Assembly: GCA_018902385.1 (NCBI GenBank)
Contig: JABSSW010000003.1
Span: 310,001-374,000 of the forward strand
Length of the DNA: 64,000 bases
Reading direction: 5' to 3'
Source: Physcia stellaris
Lineage: Eukaryota; Ascomycota; Lecanoromycetes; Caliciales; Physciaceae
Positions 21,072 to 25,558 of the stretch are shown here, piece after piece. Made by a program: the position numbers and the translations under genes. Within the stretch, counting starts at the first letter, position 1. Each line of letters starts with the position of its first letter. A model generated the notes under the pieces. The model had not been told where the DNA came from. It searched no databases and was given only the letters and a program-made list of their open reading frames with translations.

Positions 21072-23432
21072 CTGGTTTGCCGAAGGACATCCAATGTTAA
21101 CCTTGGAAGGTCAATATCGTTATTCTCATACTACTACTTTACTTAGCGAGTCCGGCGTGTCCGGGTACCTTCAACGGCCCGGATTCCCGGCAACTTGACT
21201 GGCGAAGATAGCTAGTTCTAAGGTACTTGGCGTGGAATAAGATGACAGCAGAGAAGCATTGGCCATTTCATGGACAATTGTCATCGATTTATTATTGTTG
21301 CTTTCACGAGCTTCTATTCAATTGCCATATTCCATGTTAGAAGAGCCAAATCTAAGCTTTCCTGAGAGAGTGCTATTTTGCCCCTGAAAGACATGAGGGA
21401 GTCGCGGCAAGCGATTGGTGGCCAACCAAGCGACGGCTGTTCTAATTGATCTTTGATATTTCGATTATACTGCTCTACCAGGAAAATTATTCACCTCCAG
21501 TTCATGTTGGCGGCTGATAGATTATATGCAAGAGCGGAAGGAACATGCACGTTCTTCTCAGCCCTAGACAAGGACGGCGGATGTTCATCTGATTGGGTAC
21601 CCGATCTGCATTAATCACCGCCAGAACAGATGACGAACTGAAAAGGTTGCAAACCGAGTGGAATGACCTGCAGCGGCATGATTTATAACGTGATCCGTAA
21701 GTTCTGCGGCTGCCCTTCCAGCACCCTGCGAATCGCCTGTGATTTGGACGGTCAAGGTACGATGTATTGGCTGTCCGAGCGTCTGGACTCGCTAAAGATC
21801 ATGTCGGCCTCTGATGCGGTGAACCTTTCAATGACCTCTTGACTGCCAAACCTCAGCCTTGTGAACACGCTCTGTCCAAATCATGCCCAATCAGATGACG
21901 GAAGAGCACCCTCCTTCAAGAACCTCCCCTCCCGGTGTTTGACTCAGGAATAGGCATTGAATTACTTTGATCGCGAGGTCAAGCCCGCAGCTTTCCCTGT
22001 TTTTGGGTCTGATAGGCATTGTGTCGAGTCGTATGATCGTATCGATGCAGAGAGCCTAAAAGGGATTTGTTCAGCTCGCCGGGTCAAGCCACATGCACCG
22101 ATTATTTTGGTAGACTCGAGAAGCGAGTACGGTCTGCAAGTGCTGTGCATGATCACTCTGGTGAAGAGAAGTCCGTGGCGATACAGACTCCAAGTGCCAG
22201 CTTGTGGAACTCGCGTTGAATCGGTAAGCGGAGCGCTTGAGGATTGCATTCGCTTTGACTCTGCAAGAACATGTTCAGAGACACGTGGAGCGTCCCGAGG
22301 TAAAAAAGATGTATGCAAGAGCAATAATCATAGAGGATTTTCATGATGACAGAGTGGGAGCCAAGGTGCCGGCCGTCAAGCTAATTCTCATGGGCCCGCG
22401 GTTTGGCGATTTTGGGCGGGTTTGATGCCAAGAAACGCGCTAAATTCACGCCTTACAGTCTGGTGTTCCTTTCCAGCTTCGCAACCACACACCTTCTTCG
22501 CCTCTCACTGCACCACCCAACTCTCTTCTCACCCTGTACGCTCCCTTACCCATCACCGCTTCAGGCCGATCCGAAGCAGCGATTGGCAGTCAGCCACCTG
22601 CACCATTCGCTCGGTTCCAGTGAATCTTAACCTGGTAAGTCTTCCATTTTGCACCCGCCTGTCACATCATCACCAAGAGCTTCTCGTGTGCGGCCAGAGC
22701 CGCCGTGCCTAGGTCAGGAGGCTTGTCCTGGCGGTAACTGGTGTGGGCTTTGTGGGTGTCTTCCGAAGGAATTGAGGCTGATCGGAACCCCAATCTCTGC
22801 TAGGTACAAATTTTTACCAACAGCACCACAAGGCAAAAACTAGGCAACTTGGAGTTTGCAACCCCTCACCCCACACCTCGTCAATCATACTATCTCGTTG
22901 AACGGTATTGTCAAGCAGACCGCCTTCATCGAGCCATTTGACTGGTCGGGGTCAGATTGCACTTGATCCGAAGAGCTCTTGGGATCGAGTAGTTGCAGAT
23001 ATCGCGGCCCTGTCCACGGCATCCTTGCTTACGCCTCCTCCAGCTCGTGCTTTTCGTGCACGAATCTCGGTCACAGTCACCGTCTTGACCAAAGGTCCAC
23101 TCGGCAGCCATACATCACTGAAATTACCATGGGTCCGTTGTTCCTCCTTTCCCATTCCCTCCTGCATTAAACTAGCAGTCTTCGGGCGCCTTATGAGCCT
23201 TTGTCCTCCACAGCAGCTGTCAGATGCTTGATCCGTCCGTACCGTTTTTTGTCCTAGCTTCCAGATACTCTCTGGAGACTCTCTGATTGCTCACATTCTG
23301 ACTCTAGACTCAGCAGACGTTTATCGACCTCACGCAGTAAGTACTTAGCCTTCACCATTGTTTACTATCATTATTCGATGATGCAATTTCCGCATCTCTC
23401 GAAAAGCCGAGAATTGACTCATCGGCGAATCT
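21072..23432. other. Long gene-poor region between COQ9 and the Gbp2-like gene
   Basis: About 2.3 kb. It must hold the promoters of both divergent genes. Overlapping open frames near 21960-22350 exist on both strands with no family match. From about 22450 the plus strand is pyrimidine-rich and looks like promoter plus 5' untranslated sequence. A strong donor (GTAAGTAC) at 23337 suggests that at least one 5' exon of the RNA-binding protein gene ends there. Confidence 0.45.
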
Positions 23433-25558
23433 TTGCATCATAATTACCCCCCATTTCTGCACGAAAGAATTCTTCGTCAACAGGATACCTTCAAAGATCT
23501 TATCATCACACATTTTAACCCTTGCTTACATTTGGCTGTTAAAACGCCTTATCTTTGGCTTCCTACTTTGAAGAGTAATCCTTGTTCTGACGAGAATCTG
23601 CAGCGGGAGAGGTCAAGATCGCCGCGACGTCGCTCTCGAAGCCAACGCCGTAGCCGTCGCTCGTATTCTCCTCGAAGCCGCTCGAGGAGCCGTGACGACT
23701 ATCGTAGAAGTGACCGCCGATCTCGTTCGCCCATGAGTGGTGCAGCAGGAGGCTATTCTGGGTCAGGCTACGGTCGTGGAGCACCACCACCTCCTCGAAG
23801 CTTCGAGGAACGAGCTCAAGCTAAGGAGCAAATGATGGCTTCGGTGCGGGAATCGTCACAGCAAGACCGCCGTGTCTACGTTGGCAATCTCTCTTACGAT
23901 GTTAAATGGCATCATCTTAAAGACTTCATGAGACAAGGTCCGTCATGCAAGAATCTAGTGCTTTCGCGTTTGTTCTGAGCTTATCGTGTATAGCGGGGGA
24001 GGTTCTCTTTGCCGATGTGCTATTACTTCCGAATGGAATGTCGAAGGTGGGCGCCTATACGTAGATGGCTGGTCTTTCTTGGTTTATTCTGGTTGTTGGA
24101 CGTTGGATTGACGGGTTGGGACATTGTCCGCGGGTTATGTAGGGATGCGGGTAGGTGGCGACCCGACTTGTCCGACCGTTCTTAACTAATCGTCCTCAGG
24201 ATTGTGGAATACGCAACAAGAGATCAAGCCCAACAAGCCGTGAACACCCTCAGTAACCAAAACTTGATGGGTAGACTTGTCTACGTTCGCGAAGTAAGCC
24301 ATCCTTGACCTGCTTAATCCTGCAACATGAAGAGCCTTGCAGGAACTTGTATCTTACCGCTGTGTCACAGGATCGCGAAGCCGAACCCCGTTTCACCGGA
24401 CCGCCAGCAGCTCGTGGAGGATACGAAGGAGGCCCACCCCGTGGTGGTGGCGGCTTTGGGGGCGGATATGGAGGACCTCCTGCCTCCGGCGGAGGACGTC
24501 AGATCTTCGTCAACAACGTTTGTCACATCTTCTTTCCTTGGGAGCCTGCGTAGTGAACGATATTGTTGACAAATTCTCCTAGTTGCCGTACACCGTCGGC
24601 TGGCAAGATCTGAAGGACTTGTTCCGGCAAGCTGGTATGTACATCTGTTGACTAACGTTAACAACTTCCCAAACACTTTGACGGGATTTGGTATTGACTC
24701 ACATTGAAAAATAGCACAGCAAGGAGCTGTTATTCGCGCCGATGTTCACATAGGTCACGATGGGCGGCCCAAAGGCTCCGGCATAGTTGCTTTCGAGAGT
24801 GCAGATGATGCGCGAAACGCTATCGCACAGTTCAATGGCTATGACTGGCAGGGACGTATGCTAGAGGTCCGGGAAGATCGCTTTGCTGGTCCTCCGGCCG
24901 GAGGTTATGGCGGACGTGGTGGCTTCGGCGGGGGCTTCGGTGCTCGTGGCGGCTTTGGCGGTCGAGGTGGGTTTGCCGGCGGCCGCGGAGGGTTCGGAGG
25001 AGGATATGGCCGCGGAGGCTACGGCGGAGGAGGCTACGCTGGTCCTCCTGCCGCTGCTGCCGCCGGTGCCGGTGGTTACGATGCTGGTGCTGCCGCAGCT
25101 CCACCAAATCCATTCACTGACTACGCTACCTCCGGCGGTGAGCGTAGCGAAATAATCTACGTCCGCAACGTAAGTCATCCTTGTCACCCGCGTGCTACCG
25201 TATGGCTAAATGGCGCAGCTGCCCTGGTCCACTAGCAACGAAGATCTGGTTGAGCTATTTACGACCATTGGTAAAGTCGAGCGTGCTGAGATCCAGTACG
25301 AACCCAATGGCCGCTCTCGTGGAACTGGAGTTGTGCAATTTGATAATGCTGAAAATGCCGAGACAGCAATCTGTACGATCCTCACCCTTATTATAGAATG
25401 ATCTTTCAAGCTAACGCACGACAGCCAAGTTCACCGGCTACCAGTACGGAGGACGGCCTCTTGGACTGACTTACGTCAAGTATCAGAGTGCAAACGGTGG
25501 CGATGCGATGGAAGGCGAAGAGGCAACTGGTGGCCTAACACAAGATCAGATCATGTAA
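23433..25558 (+). CDS. GBP2: Gbp2/Hrb1-like three-RRM SR/RGG protein
   Basis: This should be a shuttling poly(A)+ RNA-binding protein linking transcription, splicing quality control and mRNA export. After an Arg/Ser repeat region come RRM1 ([14 protein letters not shown]), an RGG linker, RRM2 (RQIFVNNLPYTVGW), a long Gly/Arg-rich linker (24890-25060) and RRM3 ([18 protein letters not shown]). Exons: up to 23937, 23994-24046, microexon 24143-24150, 24200-24293, 24371-24517, 24583-24634, 24716-25169, 25219-25372 and 25425-25558. The 8-nt microexon restores the conserved SKGCGIVEYA of RRM1. The start is unresolved: there is no ATG in frame before the SR repeats, so the first coding exon lies upstream, or the protein starts at ATG 23733 and lacks the SR region. 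Symbol by similarity of architecture. Confidence 0.88.

Follow-up and report, generated by a model that had tools for sequence, protein, structure and literature searches.

The window, a stretch of 64,000 nucleotides belonging to a 44-Mb assembly of 147 contigs, contains a plus-strand gene whose predicted exons encode three RRM domains, with an RS-rich stretch in frame upstream of RRM1 and Gly/RGG-rich linkers between the domains (Table 1). Scored with the Pfam profile RRM_1, the three domains reach 59.9, 60.0 (69.3 with an alternative acceptor) and 70.8 bits. Among solved structures, RRM2 has its best match in HRB1 (2mzs, 57.5 bits), and for RRM3 the chains of HRB1 (2mzt, 73.8 bits) and GBP2 (2mzq, 61.6 bits) rank next, in that order, below the four-RRM chain 6r5k, which leads with 86.2 bits and has 26.3 bits in its best single stretch. 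RRM1 aligns with HRB1 (2mzr) at 40.0 bits, behind hnRNP M (58.3 bits), hnRNP A1 and others among the best 60 of 91 matches. The name Gbp2-like, given to the gene in a preliminary description, thus appears reasonable, given the three RRMs, the RS region, the RGG linkers and the closeness of RRM2 and RRM3, not of RRM1, to Hrb1/Gbp2. Together with gene layout and intron size, these matches point to a fungus as the source. Searching the organism's own genome with RRM1 returned five matches, of which three fall within this gene and two, with weaker scores, on other contigs.

The introns at 24518 (RRM2, FVNN|LPY) and 25170 (RRM3, YVRN|LPW) interrupt the domain at the same place and in the same phase, which suggests that the intron is older than the domain duplication. 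For the RRM2 intron 24635-24723 two acceptors keep the frame, TAG at 24714 (RQAAQQGAV) and AAG at 24723 (RQAGAV). Here the RRM_1 profile favours AAG over TAG by 9.3 bits (69.3 versus 60.0), so that domain bits alone are no proof of a splice site. The search for a first coding exon, which took in ATG codons from 22501 on, +5 G donors and introns of up to 500 nt, gave 20 joins, none of them decisive; in candidate joins within 23193-23604 the first exon has only 11 or 26 nt and the intron more than 340 nt. On the minus strand, a long open frame at 26442-27908 matches WD40 repeats over part of its length (PF00400, 40.6 bits, cut-off 27) and presumably resembles a CMR1/WDR76-type protein.

Table 1. 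Predicted exons and introns of the Gbp2/Hrb1-like gene, with one rival intron (positions in the window).
Feature	Positions	Strand	Basis
RS-rich N-terminal coding exon and RRM1 start (VYVGNL)	23604..23937	+	open frame, GT donor 23938 giving MRQ-AGEV; 5' end approximate (after CTGCAG)
Intron of 56 nt inside RRM1	23938..23993	+	join enumeration, splice scoring
Exon of RRM1 (starts within Ala codon)	23994..24046	+	join enumeration
Intron of 96 nt	24047..24142	+	donor GTGGGC, acceptor TATGTAG, candidate branch site GATTGAC
Putative 8-nt microexon GGATGCGG, G-C-(G) of RNP1	24143..24150	+	sequence, frame, domain fit, splice scores, shuffles
Intron of 49 nt	24151..24199	+	donor GTAGGT, candidate branch site AACTAAT, acceptor CCTCAG
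Exon from (G) to end of RRM1	24200..24293	+	join, translation, genome RRM1 search
Rival single intron of 139 nt, donor GTAGAT; VGAYT in place of GCG	24061..24199	+	
Exon: Gly-rich linker and RRM2 start (QIFVNN)	24371..24517	+	translation
Exon: RRM2	24583..24634	+	translation
Exon: rest of RRM2, RGG/Gly-rich linker, RRM3 start	24715..25169	+	acceptor 24714 (TAG) or 24723 (AAG)
Exon: RRM3	25219..25372	+	translation, solved-RRM matches
Last exon: RRM3 end and stop codon	25425..25558	+	open frame, translation

Eight bases between two RRM1 exons

The upstream exon ends at 24046 (..ATGTCGAAG) and is followed by the donor GTGGGC, and the downstream exon starts at 24200, after CCTCAG, with GATTGTGGAATAC (GATTGTGG..). 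Between them the bases GGATGCGG are preceded by an AG at 24141-24142 (TATGTAG) and followed at 24151 by the donor GTAGGT, leaving introns of 96 and 49 nt on the two sides, just as the preliminary description had it. The length of eight nucleotides is far below that of ordinary exons. When spliced in, these bases keep the frame and complete the conserved motif SKGCGIVEYA, the RNP1 core of RRM1. Their codons read gga/tgc/gg, the upstream intron lying in phase 0 (AAG|GGA) and the downstream one in phase 2 (GG|G). RNP1 is the RNA-contacting core of the RRM, and the equivalent position elsewhere in the gene reads KGSG in RRM2 and RGTG in RRM3. A GTAGG repeat, its copies 12 nt apart, brackets the eight bases (24139-24155, GTAGGGATGCGGGTAGG) and could be due to chance or be a trace of the origin of the splice sites.

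For donors between 24002 and 24192, the GT-AG joins that span the interval were enumerated. Joining 24046 directly to 24200 shifts the frame, as had been claimed, and leads to a stop after 18 codons; this join is not the sole alternative to the microexon, since the enumeration yielded two stop-free in-frame models with a single intron, besides 13 with two introns. One of the single-intron models removes 24061-24199 (139 nt) and gives SKVGAYTIVEYA, and the other removes 24040-24199 (160 nt), so that SKGCG is lost and NGM is followed directly by IVEYA. SKGCGIVEYA is given by one enumerated model only, the 8-nt exon used with donor 24047, and the remaining 12 two-intron models delete or alter conserved residues.

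Dinucleotide-preserving shuffles of the interval, with six bases fixed at each end and both introns of at least 40 nt, produced an internal exon of 2-29 nt that keeps the frame and has no stop in 3069 of 5000 cases and one of exactly 8 nt in 2597 of 20000. Restoration of [KR]-G-x-[GA]-IVEY by an in-frame internal exon was far rarer (23 of 5000 shuffles), and when the exon length was fixed at 8 nt, GxG or GxA appeared in 92 and GCG exactly in 7 of the 20000 shuffles. Restoration of the frame alone is weak evidence, and the restored residues are the unusual part. As frame rescue comes so cheaply, the case for the microexon rests on these residues together with the splice signals.

Splice signals and competing readings

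Splice-site scores were derived from 21 introns. Fifteen are anchored in genes of the TCP-1 and actin families, with joins that are length-exact to the Pfam profile and consensus-free beyond GT/AG; these 15 were used out of 17 anchored junctions, L035 (no length-exact join) and L048 (146-nt join, judged unsafe) having been dropped before scoring. The other six are the further introns of the Gbp2-like gene itself, one of which has its acceptor at 24714 or 24723. Mito_carr genes were also searched for anchors and were left out of the splice matrix. Unsupervised matrices from 264 kb (the window and 20 stretches) gave 9 introns by hexamer and 29 by codon, without a clear consensus, and a seeded one swelled to 934 calls and had a profile that was flat. 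Because even the +5 G had faded (0.35), the unsupervised matrices were discarded and the homology-anchored introns used instead; the discarded seeded matrix had placed donors 24047, 24151, 24061 and 24040 in the 70th, 2nd, 7th and 94th percentiles, respectively.

The 21 anchored introns are 47-80 nt long, except for one of 107 nt, and 19 of them have a G at +5. A candidate for YTRAY, the branch-site pattern, lies 10-17 nt from the end in 13 of these introns and only at 36 nt in one, and seven have none within 8-50 nt. Their leave-one-out donor scores range from 0.8 to 10.4. Donor 24047 scores 6.4, the highest of the 17 GTs in 24035-24194, and donor 24151 scores 4.4, tied for second place with 24139; both have the +5 G, which neither rival donor (24061, 24040) has. 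Acceptor 24142 scores 4.93 over five bases, tied with 24154, and acceptor 24199, common to all models, has the lowest score among the four AGs (3.0). The branch-site candidate AACTAAT of the 49-nt intron has a typical position, 10 nt before the intron ends. At 96 nt the upstream intron exceeds all but one of the 21 anchored introns, and its sole YTRAY candidate, GATTGAC, lies 31 nt from the acceptor. The signals of the flanking introns are thus genome-like in their donors (6.4, 4.4, +5 G) and their TAG and CAG acceptors and weaker in the branch-site candidate of the longer intron, whose poor placing is the chief weakness of the microexon model.

This poorly placed candidate would suit a reading, compatible with a genuine microexon, in which the eight bases act as a regulated switch and are skipped, or donor 24061 is used, under some condition. 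Either the transcript would be frameshifted and exposed to decay or the RRM1 of the protein would be damaged, by which means a splicing-related protein would tune its own amount. Skipping shifts the frame, with the early stop noted above, and so makes regulation possible; the weak in-frame donor at 24061 and the precedent of the Xlr2 microexon in Trichoderma (PMC11121469) point the same way. However, the seven anchored introns without a YTRAY site 8-50 nt from their end indicate that a weak branch site need not mean regulation, and nothing in the sequence tells regulated from constitutive use; we consider such a switch unlikely. In yeast, proteins of the Gbp2/Hrb1 type rank as guard proteins in the quality control of mRNA (PMC11476243). 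The 8-nt exon might accordingly be imagined as a built-in sensor of splicing quality, with a working RRM1 made only if one of the cell's hardest exons is spliced correctly, and with weak inclusion leading to transcript decay or to an RRM1-damaged form through donor 24061; taken together, these propositions strike us as distinctly unlikely.

If there were no microexon, exon 2 could extend to 24060 and be followed by the single 139-nt intron, leaving the RNP1 region altered and two residues longer. This intron is a canonical GT-AG one and uses the same AACTAAT branch site as the 49-nt intron, and its product is still an RRM, with 46.1 bits on RRM_1 against a cut-off of 20.7. The fit is nevertheless 13.8 bits worse than that of the microexon model, at 59.9 bits (Pfam scoring covered the microexon model and the two single-intron rivals). 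Likewise, the SKGCG of hnRNP M (2dgv, which we take to be the human protein) is identical and aligns ungapped with the microexon version (NGKSKGCGVVKF versus NGMSKGCGIVEY, 58.3 bits), whereas the 24061 model reaches 41.0 bits with a two-residue gap at RNP1, a loss of about 17 bits. In the search of solved structures, with E up to 0.001, the microexon version retrieved 91 sequences and the 24061 version 52. Comparing by eye the best 60 of the 91 with the 52, we found the microexon version higher in all 48 PDB sequences common to both, the other 4 of the 52 being absent from those best 60. At least one RRM tells the two models apart less well: against domain 2 of the chloroplast protein cS22 (5x8p) the 24061 model loses just 1.7 bits (33.4 to 31.7), part of its additional residues lying in the loop that precedes RNP1. 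Its donor GTAGAT, without the +5 G, scores 0.24, under the lowest of the 21 leave-one-out donors, and 139 nt is longer than all 21 anchored introns. We hold this model to be very unlikely.

The single 160-nt intron is extremely improbable: it keeps an open frame and its donor GTCGAA (1.56) outscores two of the 21 leave-one-out donors, but the donor is without the +5 G, the Lys-Gly of the RNP1 consensus is lost and the RRM_1 score of 42.4 bits is the lowest of the three. A twin intron (stwintron), in which nested introns are excised in two successive steps and no exon separates them, is of a kind described in fungi (PMC12403724, PMC8469720), but can be given next to no credence because its product would equal a single-intron product already scored, the join 24046/24200 being out of frame and the two in-frame joins disfavoured.

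The microexon model surpasses both in-frame single-intron models in RRM_1 fit, in alignment with solved RRMs and in donor strength, which upholds the proposal that the eight bases restore SKGCGIVEYA of RRM1. We regard 24143-24150 as very probably a real internal exon, coding and 8 nt long, in a gene for a Gbp2/Hrb1-type SR-like RNA-binding protein.

Proposed splicing and comparison with known microexons

With the microexon in place, two introns would lie 8 nt apart inside the RNP1 codons of RRM1. Introns of about 50 nt suggest intron definition, in which splice sites are paired across the intron. Given such short introns, pairing of the sites by the spliceosome probably takes place across each of them, so that the 8-nt exon would not have to be defined. 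Of the two introns, that of 49 nt, which has the better branch site (AACTAAT), would probably be removed first and the 96-nt intron second, and we infer that the transcript is spliced with the microexon included near-constitutively. Inclusion would yield KGCGIVEY, and skipping the frameshifted product that stops after 18 codons.

Such a microexon alone changes no accepted idea. Tiny coding exons are already known, so this one, which is probably real, would be a well-supported further example. It also makes a practical case, as gene predictors may miss the exon or cover it with an in-frame longer intron; the 24061 model might well be chosen, and a splicing-related protein would then be given a wrong RNP1. 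That small exons are often missed in annotation, as the preliminary description held, is backed by accounts from Fusarium (PMC12940212) and from plants (PMC8831610). If conserved or regulated, the exon would lend itself to a simple test of the way in which very small exons are recognised among short introns. Pattern searches for relatives gave five matches in viral_contigs and 43 in genome_contigs, neither of them a fungal gene collection, and none was confirmed. In the open-licence PubMed Central literature, the peptide in its three versions had no text match, and titles and the starts of abstracts mentioned no microexon for a Gbp2/Hrb1 gene; in PMC3990503 the word microexon is used in a single passage, of read mapping.

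The gene as a whole resembles Fusarium Sgh1, described as a Gbp2/Hrb1 orthologue (PMC9605648), in its N-terminal RS region, three RRMs and RGG repeats. For the microexon, the likeness is closest in size to the 8-nt micro-exon gg/cac/gag of CYP5141A1 from Phanerochaete chrysosporium, located in a conserved P450 motif (PMC12940212): both are fungal, 8 nt long, start with GG, end with G and lie inside a highly conserved protein motif. In contrast to that exon, which belongs to the P450 I-helix, starts within a codon and ends on a boundary, the present one would belong to RNP1 of an RRM and has the reverse arrangement, gga/tgc/gg. Coding microexons, the shortest of 6 bp, are also described among the P. 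chrysosporium P450 genes, with introns often of 45-55 bp (PMC1184071), and here too a coding microexon would sit among short introns of a fungus, in a different gene family. The microexon of Xlr2 in Trichoderma virens (PMC11121469) likewise lies in a fungal regulatory gene, and there, as would be the case here, production of a nucleic-acid-binding domain depends on including the microexon; in Xlr2 this inclusion follows glucose.

A transcript-supported exon of one nucleotide is described in the Fusarium P450 gene CYP621A (PMC12940212). As here, it was inferred from the frame and a conserved motif, and its interval in F. graminearum, 139 nt, is unusually long for one intron. That exon is backed by 20-24 genes and by transcript reads, whereas the eight nucleotides considered here are a prediction from genomic DNA. 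Another exon of one nucleotide has been published from Arabidopsis (PMC4674806). The two 1-nt exons run counter to the earlier statement that 8 nt is near the lower limit for recognition, and with published exons of 1 nt, 6 bp and 8 nt, an exon of eight bases is small, not extreme.
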